64,000 bases of DNA, from assembly GCF_037055325.1 (NCBI RefSeq), contig NZ_CP146373.1, positions 2,666,001 to 2,730,000 on the forward strand, written 5' to 3'. Positions 8,326-46,500 of this stretch are shown one piece after another. Within the stretch, counting starts at the first letter, position 1; each line of letters starts with the position of its first letter. The translations under genes were made by a program, and so were the position numbers. The stretch comes from Arachnia propionica. GTDB lineage: Bacteria > Actinomycetota > Actinomycetes > Propionibacteriales > Propionibacteriaceae. The notes under the pieces were generated by a model. It was not told the origin of the DNA, searched no databases, and worked only from the letters and a program-made list of their open reading frames with translations.

Positions 8326-9261
8326 TCAGTCCTCGTTCTCATCGGACTGGACTATCTCACCGTCGGCGTTCTTCTTCGCCCACTTCTTACGACCCCGCTG
8401 CACGATCAGCGGATCGGTGGGTTTGATCATCGACGGGTCCTTGCCGTCGTAGTCGTGAAGGTCGAGGAACAGGCGCATGGCGTTGAGACGGGCACGTTTC
8501 TTGTCGTTGGACTTGATCCGGTACCACGGTGCGATCTCGGTGTCGGTCTGTTTCAGCATGGCAGTTTTCGCCTGGGTGTAGTCCTCCCAGCGGTCGAGGG
8601 ATTCGAGATCCATGGGTGAGAGCTTCCACCGCCGCACCGGATCGAGCTGCCGGATCGCGAACCGGGTGCGCTGCTCCCGTTGAGTGACGGAGAACCACAG
8701 CTTCGTCACGGTGATCCCCGACTCGATGAGCATCCGTTCAAAGAGCGGCGCCTGCCTCATGAAAATGCGGTACTCCTCGTCGGTGCAAAAACCCATCACC
8801 CGCTCCACACCGGCACGGTTGTACCAGGAACGGTCGAACAGCACGATCTCCCCGGCGGTCGGGAGGTGTTCGATGTAACGCTGGAAGTACCACTGTCCAC
8901 GTTCCTTCTCCGTGGGTTTCGTCAAAGCAACGACCCGCGCTCCACGAGGGTTGAGGTGCTCGGTGAAACGTTTGATCGCCCCACCCTTGCCTGCGGCGTC
9001 ACGCCCCTCGAACAAGATGATGTGCTTGGTGCCATTGTCCTGAGCCGAGTACTGGAATTTCAACAGTTCGATCTGCAGCTGACGTTTCTCTGCCTCGTAC
9101 CTGTCGCGCCCGAGAAGGGTGTCGTAGGGGTATTTGTCGCGCCAGGTCTCGACGGCATCACCGAGCGGATCGATGAGGTACTGGTCCTCGCCGTGAACAT
9201 CACCAACGGTGTAGCCCTCGTTGCGCACCATGTCGATGAATTCACGCAGGTTCTGATTCAT
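8326..9261 (-). CDS. ppk2: Polyphosphate kinase 2 (PPK2 family)
   Basis: A 311-residue PPK2-class kinase, which transfers phosphate between polyphosphate and nucleotides. Key motifs are present: Walker A FEGRDAAGKGGAIKRF, the central RGQWYFQRYIEHLPTAGE, and Walker B/lid VLFDRSWYNRAGVERVMGFC. A C-terminal RRWKLSPMDLESLDRWEDY matches class I PPK2, which usually makes GTP or ATP from GDP or ADP. The start at 9261 (MNQNLREF) removes an unlikely 28-residue upstream extension. It is divergent from tpx, 86 bp away. Confidence 0.95.
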   Translation of the reverse strand: MNQNLREFIDMVRNEGYTVGDVHGEDQYLIDPLGDAVETWRDKYPYDTLLGRDRYEAEKRQLQIELLKFQYSAQDNGTKHIILFEGRDAAGKGGAIKRFTEHLNPRGARVVALTKPTEKERGQWYFQRYIEHLPTAGEIVLFDRSWYNRAGVERVMGFCTDEEYRIFMRQAPLFERMLIESGITVTKLWFSVTQREQRTRFAIRQLDPVRRWKLSPMDLESLDRWEDYTQAKTAMLKQTDTEIAPWYRIKSNDKKRARLNAMRLFLDLHDYDGKDPSMIKPTDPLIVQRGRKKWAKKNADGEIVQSDENED

Positions 9262-9347
9262 GCACCAAGCTTGGCACGTCGCCCACTCGGTCACCTCCCG
9301 CGTCCGTTTTCCTTTGAATCGGGGCCGGGATCGGCAATGATTCATGC

Positions 9348-9842
9348 ATGACTGATATCACCCTGAACGGCACCCCCGTTCACACCCACGGTTCGTTGCC
9401 CACCGTCGGCACCAAGGCCCCGGAGTTCTCGCTGGTGGGCAACGACCTGTCCCCCGTCACCCTCGCTGACTTCGCCGGCTCCCGGTTGATCCTCAACATC
9501 TTCCCCTCCGTCGACACGGGGGTCTGTGCCATGAGCGTGCGTACCTTCAACGAGCGTGCCGCGGGGCTGGAGAACACCACCGTGTTGTGCATCTCGCGTG
9601 ATCTGCCTTTCGCGCAGGCACGTTTCTGTGGCGCCGAGGGCATCGAGAATGTGGCGGTCGCATCCGATTTCCGCACCACCTTCGGCGAGGACTACGGGGT
9701 AACCATGATCAGCGGTCCCCTCGAGGGGCTCCTGGCCCGTGCCGTCATCGTCGTCGACGAGAAGGGCACCGTGGTTCACAGCCAGTTGGTTCCTGAGATC
9801 ACGACAGAACCCAATTACGAGGCGGCCATCGCCGCTCTCTGA
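9348..9842 (+). CDS. tpx: Thiol peroxidase Tpx
   Basis: A 164-residue atypical 2-Cys peroxiredoxin that reduces hydrogen and organic peroxides with thioredoxin. The peroxidatic cysteine is in [18 protein letters not shown] and the resolving cysteine in [11 protein letters not shown], the normal Tpx spacing. The N-terminal [10 protein letters not shown] and the Arg in [13 protein letters not shown] complete the active site. Length is normal for the family. It is a single gene, divergent from ppk2 and convergent with ribokinase. Confidence 0.96.
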
Positions 9843-9953
9843 CCCGTTCAGGGCGCCACGAGCAGAAAAATCGGTTGCCCCGAGACCTGTTCACGGACGC
9901 TCGTGGATCTGCTCAACCACCTTCGGAGAAACGCCCGCTCGCCGGCTGCTCGC

Positions 9954-10814
9954 TCAGTCGGCGGGTGGGCGGGCCCCCGACCACGTGACGGCCTTCGCGG
10001 CACACCTGTTCGCCGCAGAGGCCGCCGCCACCACCGCGTCGCCCCGAGCCAGACGAGCCGCCAGGACACCAACGAAGGTGTCCCCCGCTCCAGTGGCGTC
10101 GACGACCTGCTCCACGACCACCGGCGGGATCGCGTGCACCTCGGTTCCGTCGTCGACAAGAGCACCGCGTTCCCCGAGGGTCATCACGACGCTCCGGGCA
10201 CCGGTTCGTTCCCGCAGCCGGCGGAGCAGCTCGGCACCGGTCTCATCCGAGGTCGTCAGCTGCGCCGCCTCGTGTTCGTTGACGACGAGGGGATCCGCGG
10301 CGCCGTACCAGGGTGGCGGGCTCTCGGGCGCGGGGGCGGCGTTGATCACCAGCCGCGCCCCGGTGCGGGCGGCGAGTGCGACCGCTTCCTGCTGAGCAGC
10401 CGGTGGTATCTCGTTCTGCGTCACGACGACCCGGGGTTCGACGTCACCGACCGGAAGAGTGACGTGGGCGTTGGCTCCCTGGACGACGACTATCGTGTTC
10501 TCCCCCCGCGAATCCACCTGGATGAATGCGGTGCCGGTGGGAACGCCGGTCAGCCGCCGCAACCACCGGGTGTCCAGGCCCGCTCCGTCAAGGGCCGCAC
10601 CCTGGCGACCTCCTGCATCGTCATCGCCGACGGAACCGACCATTGCGACCCGAACCCCGTCGCGGGCCGCGGCGACGGCCTGATTGGCCCCCTTGCCGCC
10701 GCACGAGAGCGCGAACTCGGAGGCCAGGAGCGTCTCCCCGGGGCCCGGGAGCCGCTCCACGGACACCACGATGTCCTCGTTCACGGATCCCACGACCAGC
10801 ACATCGATACCCAT
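9954..10814 (-). CDS. rbsK: Ribokinase (PfkB family)
   Basis: A 286-residue sugar kinase. It has the PfkB N-terminal signature GGKGANQAVAAARDG and the C-terminal signature VDATGAGDTFVGVLAARLARG with the catalytic Asp. VVNEHEAAQL and NEIPPAAQ are typical of ribokinase rather than fructokinase or adenosine kinase. It would phosphorylate D-ribose to ribose 5-phosphate. No ribose transporter is adjacent; the nearest sugar-binding protein is at 4.6 kb. The ATG at 10814 is preceded by a GGAAGGTGGG-type site. Confidence 0.9.
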   Translation of the reverse strand: MGIDVLVVGSVNEDIVVSVERLPGPGETLLASEFALSCGGKGANQAVAAARDGVRVAMVGSVGDDDAGGRQGAALDGAGLDTRWLRRLTGVPTGTAFIQVDSRGENTIVVVQGANAHVTLPVGDVEPRVVVTQNEIPPAAQQEAVALAARTGARLVINAAPAPESPPPWYGAADPLVVNEHEAAQLTTSDETGAELLRRLRERTGARSVVMTLGERGALVDDGTEVHAIPPVVVEQVVDATGAGDTFVGVLAARLARGDAVVAAASAANRCAAKAVTWSGARPPAD

Positions 10815-38023: not shown

Positions 38024-38557
38024 TCAGAAGCCGATGCTCCATTCCTCGATCTGGCCGCGGGCATAGGCCGCCTGCCCCAGGTGGGTGACCGCGTCGTCGA
38101 TGATGCTGACCAGCCGCACCCCGCGGGTGACCGGCGGGTTCCACTTGGTGTCGATCACCTCGTCCAGGTCGTCGGCGGACAGCCCCGAGACGTAGGTCGT
38201 GAACGTTTCGGCGCAGGCCTGGAAGTAGTCGAGCAGCAGGGCAGGATCCTCGACGCGCAGCGCGACGACGTCCTCGGCGGTGTCGCCAAAACCGATCGAC
38301 TTCGGGCCGCGGTCGATTCCGAGACGCTCACCCCAGCTATCGGTGATCCACAGCTGCTCCGAGATCTGCCCGGCATTGGCCAGCCACGCCACCTGGATGT
38401 CCATCTGCCGTGCGGCGTGCCACACCAGCCAGGCGATCGAGTTCGCCCGGCCGCCGGGCATCGCGTGGAGGGTTTCCTTGGAGATCTCCTTGAGCACCGT
38501 CCGGGCCGTCTCGACGGGCCGGTTGACCGAATCAATCAGAACTGCTTGAGCATCCAT
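38024..38557 (-). CDS. DinB-superfamily (DUF664-like) protein
   Basis: A 177-residue four-helix-bundle protein. The DinB metal-site histidines fit WLVWHAARQMDIQVAWLA and IDDAVTHLGQAAYARGQIEE, with ITDSWGERLGI in between, as in mycothiol-dependent DUF664 enzymes. Some members use mycothiol or bacillithiol as a thiol cofactor; the substrate here is unknown. The start at 38557 (MDAQAVLIDSV) is preferred to 38602. Confidence 0.8.
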   Translation of the reverse strand: MDAQAVLIDSVNRPVETARTVLKEISKETLHAMPGGRANSIAWLVWHAARQMDIQVAWLANAGQISEQLWITDSWGERLGIDRGPKSIGFGDTAEDVVALRVEDPALLLDYFQACAETFTTYVSGLSADDLDEVIDTKWNPPVTRGVRLVSIIDDAVTHLGQAAYARGQIEEWSIGF

Positions 38558-38642
38558 GAGTCGATCCTGCCACCGTCCGGCAAACCGCATCCCCGGCTCC
38601 ACGCACCGGACAACGTCGGTTCCTGCCCCACCGCGGCACCGT

Positions 38643-39566
38643 TCAGCGGGTGACGGAATCCACCGGCACCCGGTCGAGGTCCTCCAGGGCGATTACATCG
38701 TCGTGGATGCCGTTCGCCTCCCGCAGGTGGTCGTCGGTGGTGGTGTACCGGGTGGAGAAGTGGGTCATGGCCAGGCGGCGGGCCCCAGCTGCTGCGGCGA
38801 TGCGGGCCGTGTCCAGGGCGGTGCAGTGTCCGTGTTCGACCGCCAGCTCCCGCAGGTCGCTGGTGTAGGTGGCCTCCATGGCCAGCAGGTCGACGTTCTC
38901 GGCCAGTTTCTCCGCGGCCGGGCAGGGCCGGGTGTCCATGACGAACGCGAACGACCTCCCCCGTCGCGGACGCGACACCTCCTCCAGCCGGGTGACCACA
39001 CCGTCGATCTCCACCCGACCTTCGCGGTTCAGCTGCCCGACGGCGGGGCCGCAGATGCCGCGGGCGGCCAGGGCCTCCGGGTCGAAGCTGACCCCGGGCA
39101 GGTCCTCCACCCGGTATCCGATGGCGGGGACGCGGTGGTCGAGGCAGGCCGCCGAGAGGATGAAGTCCTTGGTCCGCAGCACCTCGCCGGGCTCCGGGCC
39201 CGCGTCGACGGGCAGGAACCGGATGTCGGCCTGGTCGTGGTAGATGCTGGCACGGTGGAGCCTCTCGACGTACTCCTGTCCCTGGGCCGGATAGACCACG
39301 GTGACCGGATGGGGCACCTGCTCCAGGGAGATGCGCTGCAACACCCCGGGCAACCCGAGGCAGTGGTCGCCGTGGAGGTGGGTGAGGCAGATGACGTCGA
39401 TGCTGCGCGCCGAGACCCCGGCCCGGGTCATCTGCCGCTGGGTGCCCTCACCGCAGTCGAACAGGACGCCGCTGGCTCCCCAGCGCAGCAGGTAGCCGTT
39501 GTGGTTCCGCGTCTTCGTGGGCACCAAGCTGGATGTTCCCAGCGCGACGAACTCGCGATCGCTCAT
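38643..39566 (-). CDS. rnz: Ribonuclease Z
   Basis: A 307-residue metallo-beta-lactamase-fold RNase that trims tRNA 3' ends. The zinc motif is CLTHLHGDHCLGLPG, with DCGEGTQRQM upstream, FVMDTRPC, MEATYTSDL and the final His in AMTHFSTRY. GAGGAGGAGAAG precedes ATG 39566, which fixes the start. It is divergent from the Ro60-like module 640 bp away; both concern RNA, though that may be coincidence. Confidence 0.95.
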   Translation of the reverse strand: MSDREFVALGTSSLVPTKTRNHNGYLLRWGASGVLFDCGEGTQRQMTRAGVSARSIDVICLTHLHGDHCLGLPGVLQRISLEQVPHPVTVVYPAQGQEYVERLHRASIYHDQADIRFLPVDAGPEPGEVLRTKDFILSAACLDHRVPAIGYRVEDLPGVSFDPEALAARGICGPAVGQLNREGRVEIDGVVTRLEEVSRPRRGRSFAFVMDTRPCPAAEKLAENVDLLAMEATYTSDLRELAVEHGHCTALDTARIAAAAGARRLAMTHFSTRYTTTDDHLREANGIHDDVIALEDLDRVPVDSVTR

Positions 39567-40208
39567 CTTCTCCTCCTCGTCCAGCCCCGGGGCCTGTTGC
39601 GAAAAACGCCACTCGGGCGAGGACTCACCGGGCGGGGTGAATCGCTCACCCGCCGTCGTGTTCCTGCACCAGCCGTGCCGGTCGCGACGGTGGGACGTCG
39701 GATCGCCCGATCCGGCATGCTGCATCCGGGCGTGGCCTGCCGCGACAGGACCCATACCCTACGGGATCGGGTCGGGCGCCATGTCCGGGGGGCCGCCTGC
39801 ACGCCTCCACCGCAACCTGCACCCTCCGTGAACGCGTCGCCCGGGGAAACTCCCGACCCGGAGTCTCTCGTCGGCAGGGCGGGTCCGGAATGGCGCCGGT
39901 GGCGGACGAGAAAACGACGTGACGGGGATGCAGGATCACGAGTCCGTCCCTCTCGAACATGAGCCGTCTTGATCGTCCCTGAACTCCTGAGCGGGAACGA
40001 TTGCCGATTCCGCTCCCGGGTTTCTCGATGTCGTGCCCTACCCATCCGCAGAAACGACGTCCCCGCCTGTCGCGGCGAAATGGGTGTCGCTACGATGACC
40101 GCGTGTCCGTGGGACCCAGGTGTGATTTCCGAGCTTCCCTGTACAGGAATTACTTCCACATCACACCGCTCTTCCCCAGACACACCCACCCTGCCCCCTG
40201 GAGAGTCG
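39567..40208. other. 642-bp gap upstream of the Ro60-like gene
   Basis: I see no convincing protein gene. I looked for a Y-RNA-like gene, since Ro proteins in bacteria can be encoded beside one, but found no tRNA-like T-loop motif or clear long pairing. The gap must hold promoters for rnz and the Ro60-like operon. Confidence 0.45.
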
Positions 40209-41600
40209 ATGCTGAGCGCAGACGAGGTCGCACGCGAGGACCTGTTGACCTTTCTCAACGCCGCATTCGTCTCCACCGGGCAGGCCGAATTCCTCACCGG
40301 AGGTGACGAGCAACGCCTGGGGCTCGGGTTCCTCCACGACTACGTGCGCGGCAACTATCGTCGCCTCTACGCCCGGCTGCTGGCGGTCGGGGTGAATCAT
40401 TTCAATGTCGCACAGATCATCATCGGACTGCTCAGCAGCGGTCGCGACACCCCCGACGACTTCCGCAGCGAGGAGAACGCCCTGCTGCGCGCGAGGCTGC
40501 GTTCCCTGCCCCCGCAGCGAGCCTGGAAGCTGATGGTCCGGCTGCGTCGGGAGGGCGTCAACAATCGTCGTACCCGCGCCCTGATCCGCGACTACATCGC
40601 CGAGCATCCCGACCTCGCCTTCCACGCGGTGAAGTACCGCCGCAAGATGTCGGGGGCGATGCGTCACGCGCACCTGCATCCCGGCGGCGAACTGGCCGAT
40701 TTCCTGTTCGGCAGCCACAAGGCCCCCTTCGACACCCCGATCCTGGAGCGCTACCGACAGGCGCGGTTCAGCAAGAGCGCGCTCCGCGAGCTGCCGTTCA
40801 GCGTCGCACAAGGCCTGGCCGCCAAGCACGGCATCAGCCCCGACGAGCTACTGAAGAGCATGGAACACCGCCTCACCGAACGGGAACGACTCCGCGTCGC
40901 CGGTCGCAGCGACACCGTCGAGGTGCGTCCCGAGAGGCTGTCGCTGACCGAACTGGCCAGCTACGTCCTGGGAGTCGACACGCCGCGCGACGAGATCGAC
41001 TGGCTGGCCGCCTCCGCTCGCGCAGTGCTGGCCCGCACCGGTCCCCTACCCCTGACCGGGAAGGTGGCCGCCGTGCTGGACAACTCGTTCTCCTCCTCGG
41101 GTTCACGCGAGAAACGTCGCCGACCGCTGGCCGTCGCCTGGGGCGTGGACCAGCTGCTGCGGGCAGGGCTCACCGACCACGACTACCGGGCTTTCTGGAC
41201 GCATCCCACCGCCGACGGCGAGGTGCCCCGACCGCGGGGGCAGACGAATCTCACGGAACGGTTGATCGATGCCCTCGAGTGGGGTGCGACGACGGTGCTG
41301 GTGGTCTCTGATGGCGCCGAGAACGACCCTCCCGGGGTTTTCCACGCCGCCCTCGACAGCGCGTCGCGGATCGTCCCAGAGCTGTACGTGCTCCACTTCA
41401 ATCCCGTCTTCGACCCGCAGGAATTGCAGGTGAGCAGCCTCAGCCCGCTGACCCGTTCTATCGGGTTGCGCAACGCCGAGGATCTGCCGACGGCGCTCGG
41501 TTTCGCACGCTACGTCACCGGCCACGGCGACCTGGCGGAGCTGGAGACCTATCTCGAACGCCGGGTGCAGGAGTTCCTGGGGGCATCAGCGCATGCGTGA
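40209..41600 (+). CDS. Ro60/TROVE-like protein with C-terminal vWA domain
   Basis: A 463-residue soluble protein. Residues about 1-260 are all-helical and repeat-like (YVRGNYRRLYARLLAVGVNH, FHAVKYRRKMSGAMRHAHLH), as in the HEAT-like TROVE ring. Residues about 280-450 form a von Willebrand A domain with a complete MIDAS: VLDNSFSSSGS (DxSxS), QTNLTERL (Thr) and VVSDGAENDP (Asp). Ro60 binds misfolded RNAs and Y RNA; that role here is inference from layout, as the helical part is divergent. ATG 40209 follows CTGGAGAGTCG. It overlaps the next gene by 8 bp, so they form a unit. A vWA partner of another system is the alternative. Confidence 0.6.
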   Translation: MLSADEVAREDLLTFLNAAFVSTGQAEFLTGGDEQRLGLGFLHDYVRGNYRRLYARLLAVGVNHFNVAQIIIGLLSSGRDTPDDFRSEENALLRARLRSLPPQRAWKLMVRLRREGVNNRRTRALIRDYIAEHPDLAFHAVKYRRKMSGAMRHAHLHPGGELADFLFGSHKAPFDTPILERYRQARFSKSALRELPFSVAQGLAAKHGISPDELLKSMEHRLTERERLRVAGRSDTVEVRPERLSLTELASYVLGVDTPRDEIDWLAASARAVLARTGPLPLTGKVAAVLDNSFSSSGSREKRRRPLAVAWGVDQLLRAGLTDHDYRAFWTHPTADGEVPRPRGQTNLTERLIDALEWGATTVLVVSDGAENDPPGVFHAALDSASRIVPELYVLHFNPVFDPQELQVSSLSPLTRSIGLRNAEDLPTALGFARYVTGHGDLAELETYLERRVQEFLGASAHA

Positions 41601-42756
41601 GATGGCACCACCCCTCGACCTGACGGGCCTGCGACCCGCCCCTGCACAGACCTTCGGGGCATTCCGGTTGATCCCGTTGCTGCGCGAAACCCCCTGCCAG
41701 GACGTTCGGTTGTCGCGTGCAGCCATCCCGCCCGGCGTGAAAATCGTCGACCTGCCCGGTCGGAAAAGCTACATCGCCTTCGTCCCCCACGGGTTGCGCC
41801 TGACCTGGGGCTCAGCCGCAGGCACTCAGGTGAAGAAGAAGGACACCCCCGACGACTGGCAGTTCCTCGAATCGGTGCATCGGCTGCGGAAGAAGGACGG
41901 TGAGGACGCGCTGCGTTTCCTGCCGCAGCACCTGGCCATCGAGGGTCTCCTCGAGCTGCACTTCAAACCCCCGACGATCGCGTGGCAGGAGTTGTCGCAG
42001 GGGTTCAGGAACCTCGGGATGACCCACCGTTCGGAGTCCTTCTTCTCCGGGCGGGAGATTCCCGGATACGCCACCGCCTTGCGGACCTTCGAACTCCACC
42101 GTGGTCAGGTCGGGATGCTGGTCCACACCTCCGACGCACTGATGGCGGCCTTCGTCGTGCCGACCGCCGAGGACTACAAGCTGCTGCACCGCACCCTCCT
42201 CGACGATCTCTACGGCGAACTGATGATGGCCTATGCCCTGAACCAACCCACCCGCTGGCTGGTGGATGCGGGCCCGCTCTTCGCCGAGGCCACGAGCATC
42301 AATGGGCTGCGTGGGGCGTTGGAGCGCGTGCGGCGCGACTGGTCCGAGACCACCACCGAAATTCTCCTGGGCGACTGGAAGGATCGTTGCTTGTTCACCG
42401 AGACGGTCTATCGCCCCGGAAGCATGCGCCTGGAACGCTTCGTGACCGACCTGGAGCTGCGCCGCCCCAACCACATCGGAGAACGCCTGGTCCGCGACGA
42501 CGGCGAGCTGCTCTACGTCAACACCCTGCGGTTGAGTTCGGCCCAGACCCGGCGCGCCCACCTGCTGCACCAGCTCTCCACGCACGACTGGAACCTGCAC
42601 GAAGCCGCCGCGGCGCTCGGCACCGACCTTCCCGGGCTTGTCGCACGAATCACCGCGCGGGGTTTCGGACACCTGATCAACAACGCCGTCCGGGAACAGG
42701 CAGCGAAGAAACTCCGGGAGCAGGGACGTCTCCCCGGTCACCTGCCCGGAGACTAG
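41593..42756 (+). CDS. ARPP-2-like protein, partner of the vWA gene
   Basis: A 387-residue soluble protein. The N-terminus (LDLTGLRPAPAQTFGAFRLI, then PLLRETPCQDVRLS) resembles, from memory, the ARPP-2 domain described in comparative studies of RNA-repair and conflict systems. The middle (TALRTFELHRGQVGMLVHTS, DALMAAFVVPTAEDYKLLH) seems a second globular domain. The C-terminus (HDWNLHEAAAALGTDLPGLV, ITARGFGHLIN) looks like a helix-turn-helix of Fis type. Start 41593 overlaps the upstream stop; ATG 41602 is possible. No activity is known. Coupling to a Ro60-like gene suggests RNA surveillance or repair. Confidence 0.5.
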   Translation: MREMAPPLDLTGLRPAPAQTFGAFRLIPLLRETPCQDVRLSRAAIPPGVKIVDLPGRKSYIAFVPHGLRLTWGSAAGTQVKKKDTPDDWQFLESVHRLRKKDGEDALRFLPQHLAIEGLLELHFKPPTIAWQELSQGFRNLGMTHRSESFFSGREIPGYATALRTFELHRGQVGMLVHTSDALMAAFVVPTAEDYKLLHRTLLDDLYGELMMAYALNQPTRWLVDAGPLFAEATSINGLRGALERVRRDWSETTTEILLGDWKDRCLFTETVYRPGSMRLERFVTDLELRRPNHIGERLVRDDGELLYVNTLRLSSAQTRRAHLLHQLSTHDWNLHEAAAALGTDLPGLVARITARGFGHLINNAVREQAAKKLREQGRLPGHLPGD

Positions 42757-43385
42757 AACGTCTTCGTCTCGTCGCGGTTCATGAACGCACCGTGACCAGT
42801 GGCGGTGTTCCAGCAGGTCAGGCCCGCATCCTCGGAGGCACACACGTAGTCCCCGTGGTAGACGACGGTTCCATATTCCACCTGCTGACCGGGGGTTCCC
42901 GGATTCTGGAACATGGGAGATTCGCTTCTCGACACGAGCTCGGGCTCCGCCTGACTCGCGGACGTGGAATTCTTCATCCTCACCCACCACTTGGCGCCGA
43001 GCTCATCCGAACCGTAGGGTTTGCTGTCCGTGTAGTTGATGATCCCGCAGCCCGCGCTCGTGTCCGAAAACTCGCAGGTGATGTTCTTCGACGGGGTGAC
43101 GATCACCGCGTACCCCGAATGGACGGCGGTGATCGGGGTGGCATTCGCGGGTCGCGGTCCGCCCGCTCCCGAATAGGCCCCCGGAATCGATACCGGCGAC
43201 CTCGTCGCGGACGGCGACCCCGCACCTGCGGAGGGGCGCGCCGTGGGCAGGGCGATGGCCGCCGAATCCTGGGCACTCGGCGATCCGGATTCAGAGGACG
43301 TGGAGGACGCGCAACCTGCCAGCAGACCTCCGGCAAGCACCGACGCGAGTAGCGGACGGAAGCGTCGACGGACGGAATCTGACAT
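42753..43385 (-). CDS. Secreted lipoprotein, paralogue of 25680 gene
   Basis: A 210-residue lipoprotein with signal peptide ending in lipobox LAGC, a Ser/Ala/Pro linker, and the same domain as the 25.7-kb lipoprotein: GAGGPRPANATPITAV, ITCEFSDTSAGCGII, YGTVVYHGDYVCASEDAGLT and CWNTATGHGAFMNRDETKTF. CAGGAGGAGACC precedes ATG 43385. Function unknown. It overlaps the end of the ARPP-2-like gene by 4 bp, tail to tail. Confidence 0.72.
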   Translation of the reverse strand: MSDSVRRRFRPLLASVLAGGLLAGCASSTSSESGSPSAQDSAAIALPTARPSAGAGSPSATRSPVSIPGAYSGAGGPRPANATPITAVHSGYAVIVTPSKNITCEFSDTSAGCGIINYTDSKPYGSDELGAKWWVRMKNSTSASQAEPELVSRSESPMFQNPGTPGQQVEYGTVVYHGDYVCASEDAGLTCWNTATGHGAFMNRDETKTF

Positions 43386-43594
43386 GGTCTCCTCCTGGTT
43401 CTCTGACAACCCGCTGGGACACGAACGCTCCCACCCTGCCACGAAGATTCTCCTGCCAAAGATACTTCCAAGAAATTCCAGGGCGGTCTGCGACGGTCGG
43501 CCCGACCTCCGAAAAGAGCCAAAAGCTACGGCACGATGTCCTAAATCCCACCTTCCCTGCCCGCGTGGCCGGCGCGTGGGGCAAGATTATCCCT

Positions 43595-46500
43595 GTGAGC
43601 AACGTGACCAACCAAGCATTGACGGACAAGGCTGTGCGCACCGCACGACGCTGGGCGCAGCGCTCCCTCGCCCACCCGGAACCCCGCGCAGCAAAGCTGC
43701 TGGCAAGCGCGCTCGACCATCCAGATGGGCTCCGCTTCACCCTTGAATTCGTTGACGGCGTTCTGCGCCCCGAGGACCCGGCGGTGGCAGCCAAGAATCT
43801 GGCGCGTCTGGCCCGGCAGTCCGTCCCCTTCCTGCCCCCCTACCTGCGCGCCGGCCTCGGTCTCGGCGTCGCCCCCGCGCCCCGGACGATGCTGCCCGCG
43901 GTGCGTCGTGCCTTCTCCCTGCTGCTGGGCGACCTCGTCGTCGACATCGGTCGCGATCTCGGGCCGGCGTTGGCCAGGTTGCGCAGGAGCGGTGCGAGCC
44001 TGAACATCAACCTCCTCGGTGAGGCCGTGCTGGGCGACGAGCACGCGTCCTCCCGACTCAACCGCACCATTGAACTGCTCAACCGACCCGACGTCGACTA
44101 CGTCTCCATCAAGGTGTCCTCGGTGATGGGTCCCCATTCGCCGTGGGCCCACGACGCGACGGTGGAGGAGGCCGTGGTTCGTCTCGGCCCGCTCATGGAG
44201 GCCGCGAACAGGTCGGGCAAGCTCGTCAACCTCGACATGGAGGAGTACCGCGACCTCCACCTCACCCTTGAGGTGTTCGAGCGGTTCGCCATGAAACTGC
44301 CGAACCTGAGGATGGGCCTGGCAGTCCAGGCCTACCTGCGCGAGTCGCCGCTGATGATCGAGCACATCCAGAAACTGGCACGACGCCGCTGCGAGGCGGG
44401 CGGCATTCCGCTGCGGGTGCGTCTGGTCAAGGGCGCCAACCTGGCGATGGAACGCACCCAGGCGGAGCTGCGCGGCTGGCCAAACCCGATCCTGCCGTCG
44501 AAGGTCGAGACCGACGCCAGCTACCTCAGCGCCCTCGACCGGCTCCTGACCCCCGACTCCATCAAGACCCTCTACGTCGGTTCGGCCAGCCACAACATCT
44601 ACAGCCTCGCCACCGCCGTCGAACTGGCGAAGGCCCGCGGCATCACGTCGGGCTTCGACATCGAGATGCTGGCAGGCATGGCGGTGCCGTTGCAGCGGGT
44701 GATCCTCGACGAAATGGGTTCGTTGCGGCTCTACGTTCCCGTGGTGCCGCGCAGCGAGTTCGATTCCGCGATCACCTACCTGGTGCGACGCCTGGAGGAA
44801 AACGCCGCACCGGAGAACTTCATGTCCGGGGCGGCCTCCCTCGGCCACGACATCGCCTTCCTCGACAAGGAGGAGGGACGCTACCGCGACGCCGTCGCGC
44901 TGATCGGTTCCCCCACCCCGAGCGCCTGGGCGGTCCAGGAACGCAGCGAACCGACGTCCGTGTTCACCAATACCTCCGACACCGACCCCGCGCTGCTCAG
45001 CAACCAGCGGTGGGCCGATTCCATCCGCGAGTCGCTGCCCGCCCCCGATCTCGGCGGCGACACCGTGACCAAGGGCACCCTGACATCCGCCAAAGCCCTC
45101 GACGAGGTGCTGACAACAGCCGTCGCCGCAGGGAAGCGCTGGGCCGCGACCCCGGCTACGGAACGCGCCACCGCGCTGCACCGGCTGGGTGTCGAACTGG
45201 AGGCGATGCGCACCGAACTGATCACGGTCGCCGCCGACGAGGTGGGCAAGCTCATCGACCAGGCGGACGTCGAGGTCTCCGAAGCCTGCGACTTCGCCCA
45301 CTACTACGCCTCCCTCGCTGGGGAGGAGGTCGACGGCGCCGCGCACCGTCCCCCGCAGGTCACCGCGGTCATTCCGCCGTGGAACTTCCCGATCGCGATT
45401 CCGCTGGGCGGGGTTGCCTCCGCACTGGCCGCGGGGTCGGCGGTGCTGTTGAAGCCCGCCTCCCCGTCGCGTCGCTGCGCGGCGCTGCTGGCCGAGGCGT
45501 GCTGGCGGGCGGGCCTGCCGCGCGACCTGGTGCAGTACGTCGTCATGGGTGATCGTGCGCTCGGCGAGAAGCTGGTGCGTGACGAACGTGTCGAACTGGT
45601 CGTGCTGACCGGGTCGGCGGAGACCGCCGAGATGTTCCGTTCCTGGCGGCCCAACCTGTCGTTGCTGGCCGAAACCTCTGGCAAGAACGCGCTGATCATC
45701 ACCCCGTCGGCTGACCTGGACCTCGCAGCCGCCGACCTGGTGGCGTCCGCTTTCGGGCACGCGGGGCAGAAGTGTTCCGCCGCGTCGCTGGGCATCCTGG
45801 TCGGATCGGTGGCCAAGTCGCGGCGTCTCCTGGATCAGATCGTCGACGCCGCATCGTCGTTGACCGTGGCATGGCCGGAGGATCCGGCTGCCCAGATGGG
45901 TCCGCTCACAGAGGTGCCGGGCGAGAAACTGAGGCGCGGTCTCACCGAGCTGGAGCACGGGCAGACGTGGCTGCTGAAACCGCAACGCATTGATGACCGG
46001 CTGTGGCGTCCGGGCATCCGGACCGGAGTGCGACCGGGCAGCGCCTTCCACCAGGTGGAGTACTTCGGGCCGGTGCTCGGCTTGATGGCGGCCCGCGACC
46101 TGGCACAGGCCGTGGAGTGGCAAAACGGCACCGAGTACGGCCTGACAGCTGGTCTGCACTCCCTCGATGCCGAGGAGATCCAGTTCTGGCTGGACCGCGT
46201 GAAGGCCGGCAACCTGTACGTGAACCGCGGGATCACCGGGGCCATCGTGCGGCGTCAGCCCTTCGGCGGGTGGAAGCGTTCCGCGGTCGGCACCGGGGGC
46301 AAGGCCGGTGGCCCAAACTACGTGGTGGGCTTCGGTTCCTGGGAGCCGAAGGACCTCGGCCCCTCCGGCGCCCTCACCGATCCGAAACTTGTGCATCTCT
46401 TCCGGGCCGCCGCCCGGGTGCTCGACGAGCAGCAGCTCGAACAGCTCAACGTCGCGGCTACCTCGGATCAGGCGGCCTGGCGGACCCTGTTCGGGGTCTC

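Follow-up and report, generated by a model that had tools for sequence, protein, structure and literature searches.

A putative Ro-type ribonucleoprotein cassette in Arachnia propionica: a structured upstream RNA, a Ro60-fold protein and ARPP-2

The locus and its features

The stretch of Arachnia propionica DNA analysed here, referred to as the window, spans 64,000 nucleotides (contig NZ_CP146373.1 of RefSeq assembly GCF_037055325.1, positions 2,666,001 to 2,730,000) and contains, on its forward strand, two overlapping genes preceded by a structured small RNA. The upstream gene (positions 40209 to 41600 of the window, + strand) encodes a 463-residue protein with the predicted fold of Ro60, hereafter the Ro-like protein. 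The downstream gene (41593 to 42756, + strand) encodes the 387-residue ARPP-2, which matches Pfam family PF22549 almost from end to end (E 1.1e-84, 284 bits, profile positions 1 to 277 of 278). Both reading frames and their shared 8 bp (41593 to 41600), as well as the ARPP-2-like character of the second product, had been recognized in an earlier note made from the sequence alone, and they agree with the present analysis. This overlap, together with a geometry kept in relatives, indicates that ARPP-2 is probably translationally coupled to the Ro-like gene. A GGAG sequence (40200 to 40203, + strand), 5 nt before the ATG of the Ro-like gene, is a possible ribosome-binding site. The RNA, of about 85 nt, occupies positions 40101 to 40185 (+ strand), as defined by a match to our RNA model, R1, and by covariation, and ends ∼25 nt upstream of the Ro-like start codon.

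Conservation of the gene pair

The association of the vWA gene with ARPP-2 recurs far beyond chance. In surveys of 394 genomes of the class and 60 genomes of close relatives, the ARPP-2 profile scored above its family cut-off in 19 and 5 genomes, respectively. Of 25 ARPP-2 loci inspected, that of the window among them, 24 have a vWA gene just upstream, which in one case, L058, is split into two frames; L051, whose ARPP-2 match is partial (∼50 bits), was left out. The two genes overlap by 4 bp in 15 loci and by 8 bp in 5. More distant relatives had escaped an earlier genome scan with a single protein, which gave no matches, and were reached with a 23-row vWA alignment, which recovered 384 relatives from the genome collection. 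Among the best 80 of these 384, hereafter the public loci, ARPP-2 lies downstream of the vWA gene in 77, the two genes being no more than 30 bp apart in 56 of the 77 pairs; the exceptions are L068, L112 and L093, the last of which stops at a contig edge. The pair recurs in at least six phyla, which we take to be Cyanobacteria, Myxococcota, Actinomycetota, Planctomycetota, Armatimonadota and, for the Gammaproteobacteria, their parent phylum, and many of the hosts are presumably filamentous, colonial or fruiting-body forms.

Within the genus of the window, only 5 of 36 genomes encode the pair, which therefore behaves as an accessory cassette. ARPP-2 was detected by tblastn in 3 of 72,556 plasmid records, all from Nostoc, and in none of the phage records, and the viral contigs contained neither a relative of either protein nor the exact sequence of the RNA core. 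The neighborhoods were also examined for a conserved third gene, and none was found: the 106 flanking proteins carry 171 Pfam families, none recurring in more than 5 proteins. Judged by its titles, the literature surveyed holds nothing on this RNA or on the vWA and ARPP-2 pair, which may be mentioned inside the papers.

A Ro60 fold unmatched by sequence

Searches of Pfam, NCBIfam, PADLOC and the PDB sequences return no match for the Ro-like protein, which family searching alone would thus have left as unknown. Its predicted structure is more informative. The AlphaFold2 model, computed from a 38-row alignment, is of high quality (mean predicted local distance difference test score, pLDDT, 89.6; predicted template modeling score 0.89), and Ro60/TROVE structures fill the first 13 ranks of the Foldseek search against the PDB (E 8.6e-6 to 2.4e-4, probability 1.00) at 10 to 14% identity, with the match at rank 14 falling to E 0.058. 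With VIA-align, the model superimposes on Ro60 (2i91) over 401 residues (model range 9 to 440) with a Z of 18.0, whereas the best vWA-only chain reaches 12.9 over 182 residues; the helical half therefore contributes to the match. A search of BFVD gives the same picture, with viral Ro-like proteins among the fold matches, one of them named as the Ro-like RNA-binding protein of Gordonia phage VanLee.

Two domains can be delimited. The secondary structure of the model places a helical domain at about residues 1 to 280 (40209 to 41048, + strand), in which NNRR (residues 118 to 121) and KYR (residues 142 to 144) are invariant across the 38 rows. VIA-align and the alignment columns place a vWA domain at about residues 283 to 463 (41055 to 41597, + strand), with a complete metal ion-dependent adhesion site (MIDAS): all 38 rows keep D291-x-S293-x-S295 and D368 unchanged, and T (33 rows) or S (5 rows) stands at position 346. 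The earlier note had described a helical half followed by a vWA domain with complete MIDAS, and had named failure of that half to match TROVE folds as an argument against its view; the half is confidently predicted, it matches TROVE structures, and the MIDAS columns are kept. Its Ro60-like assignment stands at the level of predicted structure and not at that of sequence, where a match to TROVE is missing. According to the model, the protein has the Ro60 fold over its whole length and probably works like Ro60; because sequence membership fails, it is not counted as a member of the TROVE family.

A covarying RNA upstream of the Ro-like gene

The region preceding the Ro-like gene is free of same-strand genes within 100 bp in all 70 loci where one could be called, and it is conserved. 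In blastn comparisons, 77 of 79 upstream regions form one group, the other two matching each other, and the conserved core lies mostly between ∼110 and 25 nt before the start codon. This core folds into a nested architecture: P1, formed by the 5' and 3' ends and interrupted by one bulged pyrimidine, an internal loop of ∼5 and 6 nt, P2, a conserved UUCCG and the apical hairpin P3. RNAalifold applied to 59 non-redundant sequences gives 12 pairs with a one-base bulge in P1, 7 pairs in P2 and 4 pairs in P3. Six sequences folded singly likewise have a P1 helix broken by one bulged base before GGGA/UCCC, and of 79 elements, 60 have C and 19 have T as the bulged base.

The structure is supported by covariation, with compensatory change in 20 of the 23 pairs. 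Paired cells amount to 92.9% of the alignment (74.2% in shuffles), cells changed on both sides number 293 (81.7 in shuffles), and the covariation score is 0.586, compared with 0.224 for shuffled alignments and at most 0.172 when the structure is slid by 1 to 3 columns; none of 500 shuffles reaches any of the five observed measures. Since G-U cells outnumber A-C cells (93 vs 32), the RNA lies on the strand of the gene. Model R1, of which the window provides one of the 59 rows, matches the window at 40093 to 40193 (67.9 bits, E 3.1e-16), and the window copy taken alone has a minimum free energy of -29.4 kcal/mol (z about -3.5). With Rfam 15, neither the window nor the loci of 12 relatives gave a match that reached its gathering score. 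Where the earlier note saw no Y RNA beside the pair, a conserved structured RNA is thus present.

The RNA is probably transcribed from its own base. By consensus, the sequence TACGAT (40091 to 40096, + strand), 4 nt before P1, is a probable -10 promoter box. A TANNNT hexamer ends 4 to 9 nt before P1 in 64 of 79 elements, compared with 0 to 14 in 19 upstream control windows; transcription probably starts, then, at the base of P1. With such a start, P1 would pair the transcript's own ends.

Linkage of the RNA to the Ro-like gene

The RNA is linked in cis to the Ro-like gene. R1 searches of the class and relative genomes, for which stricter filters were used, detected the RNA in 18 of the 394 class genomes, one copy each. 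All 17 intact pairs of the class have it, as do 17 of the 19 ARPP-2 genomes, and no genome without the locus does. Three genomes are irregular: G577 has ARPP-2 without a vWA gene and without the RNA, G423 has only a partial 50-bit ARPP-2 match, and G553 has the RNA, with an IS605-type (TnpB) insertion interrupting its vWA gene and no more than the end of ARPP-2 remaining. A decaying copy of this kind can be seen at L208 (5652 to 8458, - strand), where the end of the Ro-like gene, after TnpB, runs into the ARPP-2 C-terminus next to an intact RNA. Among the 60 relatives, the RNA occurs in 4 of the 5 pair genomes and in none of the other 55; in the fifth, it is cut by the contig end, its visible half scoring 15.4 bits (E 0.23).

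In the public loci, which supplied 58 of the 59 rows of R1, the RNA is present in 77 of 80, and two of those lacking it, L059 and L065, lie at contig edges. L068 and L112 possess the RNA and the Ro-like gene with ARPP-2 not nearby, and L049 possesses ARPP-2 with neither; on these patterns, the RNA follows the Ro-like gene rather than ARPP-2. Eight Nostocales loci carry two tandem copies of the RNA, 118 to 206 nt apart and 52 to 80% identical without gaps.

ARPP-2, the partner protein

In the ARPP-2 model (mean pLDDT 83.6), two regions are rich in strands, the middle is helical and the C-terminus forms a bundle of helices. Eight residues are invariant in the 44 rows of its alignment (H66, R146, E148, E167, Q172, D194, Y195 and H199); this pattern fits an enzyme and is not proof of one. 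The ARPP-2 profile matches two ARPP-1 proteins with E-values of 4e-5 and 1.5e-4, below its cut-off, and the family thus appears distantly related to ARPP-1 (PF20208). The excerpted text of PMC9503650 proposes that ARPP acts on ribose moieties of ADP-ribose and reports an invariant Cys and Gln. In ARPP-2, Q172 is invariant, but its neighbor, position 173, varies across the 44 rows (V in 34, C in 9, I in 1). Profile alignment against the PDB sequences yields chance-level matches only.

The C-terminus may form a Fis/NtrC-like helix-turn-helix (residues 316 to 376; 42538 to 42720, + strand). Four helices are predicted in this segment, HTH_8 matches with E 0.079 and NtrC DNA-binding domains with E ∼1, and three chains of helix-turn-helix regulators align by VIA-align to residues 315 to 362 (Z 2.2 to 2.7). 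The helix-turn-helix put forward in the earlier note is therefore weakly supported by the predicted helices and by the profile and structural matches.

Comparison with known systems

The cassette resembles Ro60/Rsr systems in combining a helical domain with a C-terminal vWA domain and MIDAS, matched over the whole length in the predicted model, and in having a structured RNA encoded directly upstream. Unlike Ro60/Rsr, its protein lacks a TROVE or vWA_Ro60 sequence match, is shorter than the genome's own Ro60 (463 vs 523 residues) and is partnered by ARPP-2, with RtcB not nearby. The single RtcB match of the genome (G000:C1:341834-342949) lies over 900 kb away from the window, even if the contig is taken as circular, in keeping with the earlier note, which saw no RtcB beside the pair; RtcB is near neither the Ro-like pair nor the classical Ro60. 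The latter is encoded in the same genome (L010, 8501 to 10069, - strand; TROVE E 2.3e-44, vWA_Ro60 E 1.2e-66), just downstream of a YrlA-like RNA (29.9 bits, E 0.0011, short of the gathering score of 69), and R1 has no match at this locus. Gene and RNA together occupy 8501 to 10252 (- strand) of L010, or G000:C1 ∼1433500-1435251. A possible second tRNA-like RNA lies nearby (L010, 10345 to 10424, - strand). TROVE co-occurs with ARPP-2 in 12 of 19 ARPP-2 genomes vs 42 of 375 others (Fisher p 3e-7) and, in the genus, in 5 of 5 ARPP-2 genomes vs 8 of 36 overall (hypergeometric p 1.5e-4), associations that are both confounded by phylogeny and genome size and were not used as main evidence.

The RNA is like Y RNA and YrlA in its length (∼85 nt), its paired ends, its single bulged pyrimidine, its position upstream of a Ro-like gene and its occasional duplication; the excerpt of PMC7790460 describes the arrangement rsr-yrlBA in Salmonella. 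The vertebrate Ro60 site includes a helix with a single bulged cytidine, as given in the part of PMC4726728 available to us, and P1 would be a lower, end-paired stem of this kind, with a bulge that is mostly C. Unlike YrlA, the RNA has no tRNA-like arm (ARAGORN found no tRNA-like module in the window, and YrlA has no match there) and differs from the YrlA-like RNA of the true Ro60. The resemblance is one of architecture, not of sequence.

Two further groups share components with the cassette. Like the ADP-ribose systems centered on ARPP-1 and ARG, it contains what looks like a distant relative of ARPP-1, and vWA genes are reported near ARG systems, some of whose neighborhoods also hold ARPP, in the excerpted text of PMC9503650. 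In contrast to ARG systems, ARG, the rhodanese-phosphatase and Nudix are not among the 25 commonest flanking families. Like the MoxR-vWA ternary conflict systems, the cassette has a vWA component and a bias to multicellular bacteria; unlike them, it has a Ro60-type helical domain, and its flanking proteins do not show MoxR among the 25 commonest of their 171 families, rare cases being possible. The neighbors thus do not point to the MoxR-type chaperone role that the earlier note had considered as a counter-indication.

Interpretation and alternative explanations

We hold, with moderate confidence, that the locus is a Ro-type ribonucleoprotein cassette made up of a cis-encoded Y-like RNA, a Ro60-fold protein and ARPP-2. 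In the mechanism proposed, the promoter would give rise to a stable, structured small RNA in which the 5' and 3' ends come together as the bulged stem. The Ro60-fold protein would most likely bind this P1 stem on its helical domain, by analogy with the binding of Y RNA by Ro60, and ARPP-2 would most likely join the particle through the vWA MIDAS. ARPP-2 could then act on RNA ends, ribose or nucleotide moieties, or report through its C-terminal helix-turn-helix. The RNA would serve as both scaffold and gate for an accessory system of RNA metabolism or stress.

Several results weigh against this interpretation. On the protein side, none of the 38 family members has a TROVE or vWA_Ro60 Pfam match at E ≤1, and hhalign gives no link between the Ro-like profile and a rough TROVE alignment (probability 0.3%), a weak test, since that alignment, built from public genome loci, mixes partial frames. 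The ARPP-2 model has no match in the PDB at E ≤0.001, its VIA-align Z being at most 3.0, which does not establish a new fold. On the RNA side, the upstream RNA matches neither Y_RNA nor YrlA of Rfam, and even permissive Rfam scans of 38500 to 43600 and of one relative's element return no Y RNA family. In several of the tandem copies of cyanobacteria the -10 box is hard to make out, and one locus, L081, has an intact pair but no RNA. Most RNA copies have their end only ∼12 to 50 nt from the start codon, and only 8 of 79 elements show a run rich in T (5 or more T in 8 positions) after P1; with so short a gap to the ATG and so few T-rich flanks, the RNA could be just an mRNA leader.

Such a leader, a cis-acting element transcribed from P1 onward that would control expression of the pair by its fold, for example by autoregulation through the Ro-like protein or by sensing a ligand or stress, with no free small RNA, is the less probable but serious alternative. 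It agrees as well with the class survey, in which each RNA-bearing genome has a single copy and the copy is invariably upstream of the gene. The tandem duplication in eight loci is, however, odd for a leader switch, as are gaps of up to ∼330 nt to the start codon (mostly in the tandem-copy loci); P1 pairs the apparent ends of the transcript, as in Y RNAs, and conservation mostly stops before the ribosome-binding site. The two explanations are not exclusive, because binding of the leader by the Ro-like protein that its mRNA encodes would make it a Ro-type RNA all the same. It is, by comparison, very unlikely that the vWA protein serves ARPP-2 as a peptide-binding co-chaperone of the MoxR type without an RNA role, as in published conflict systems. 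Peptide-binding chaperones are what the excerpted text of PMC9503650 proposes for vWA proteins in ARG neighborhoods, and the multicellular host bias recalls the MoxR-vWA systems of PMC7159879, as excerpted; yet the fold outside the vWA domain is that of Ro60, no AAA+ partner recurs among the flanking proteins, and the conserved RNA would be left unexplained. Most improbable of all is that the element works as DNA, for instance as an operator bound by the helix-turn-helix of ARPP-2. Inverted repeats beside a promoter-like box and a possible Fis-like domain in ARPP-2 would suit an operator, but three nested helices covary around a conserved bulge and internal loops, G-U cells are in excess over A-C cells, and the element persists in L068 and L112, where ARPP-2 is not nearby.

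Ro60 and Y RNAs have been described in animals and in a minority of bacteria; the role of the particle is still debated. Whether the cassette represents a second, independent class of Ro-type ribonucleoprotein is, in our estimate, evenly balanced; this class would unite a TROVE-less Ro60-fold family, a new family of scaffold RNA and an ARPP-2 effector acting on RNA ends or ribose, spread as an accessory among multicellular or complex bacteria beside the classical Ro60/YrlA. A second Ro-like system sharing architecture but not sequence would be an independent natural experiment on which features of the Ro particle matter. The locus also adds a covariation-supported RNA found across six phyla, and it places ARPP-2, whose function is not established, in a setting linked to RNA and open to testing in tractable hosts (Streptomyces, Myxococcus, Nostoc).

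Neighboring genes and minor observations

Upstream of the cassette in the window, the opposite strand (38643 to 39755, - strand) encodes a ribonuclease Z-looking protein with a metallo-beta-lactamase fold and a weak match to a tRNase Z profile. This arrangement is not a conserved one, since Arachnia propionica L060 has a CbiJ/CobK gene in this place.

Some loci carry genes between the Ro-like gene and ARPP-2. In Nostoc L056 and L058 (7204 to 7943 in each), these are annotated as XisH and XisI; L073 (2542 to 3281) has two open reading frames of sizes like XisH/XisI, and L078 an FAD oxidoreductase together with an acetyltransferase-looking frame. The flanking genes of L117, labeled Comamonas sp. 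KCTC 72670, are as in Myxococcus loci, and the label may be wrong or the contig contaminated. Finally, a conserved open reading frame of ∼120 residues lies upstream of the RNA in L067 (8312 to 8677), where it was tested and has no Pfam match, and similar frames occur in L071, L075, L083, L085, L111 and L129, all Nostocales.

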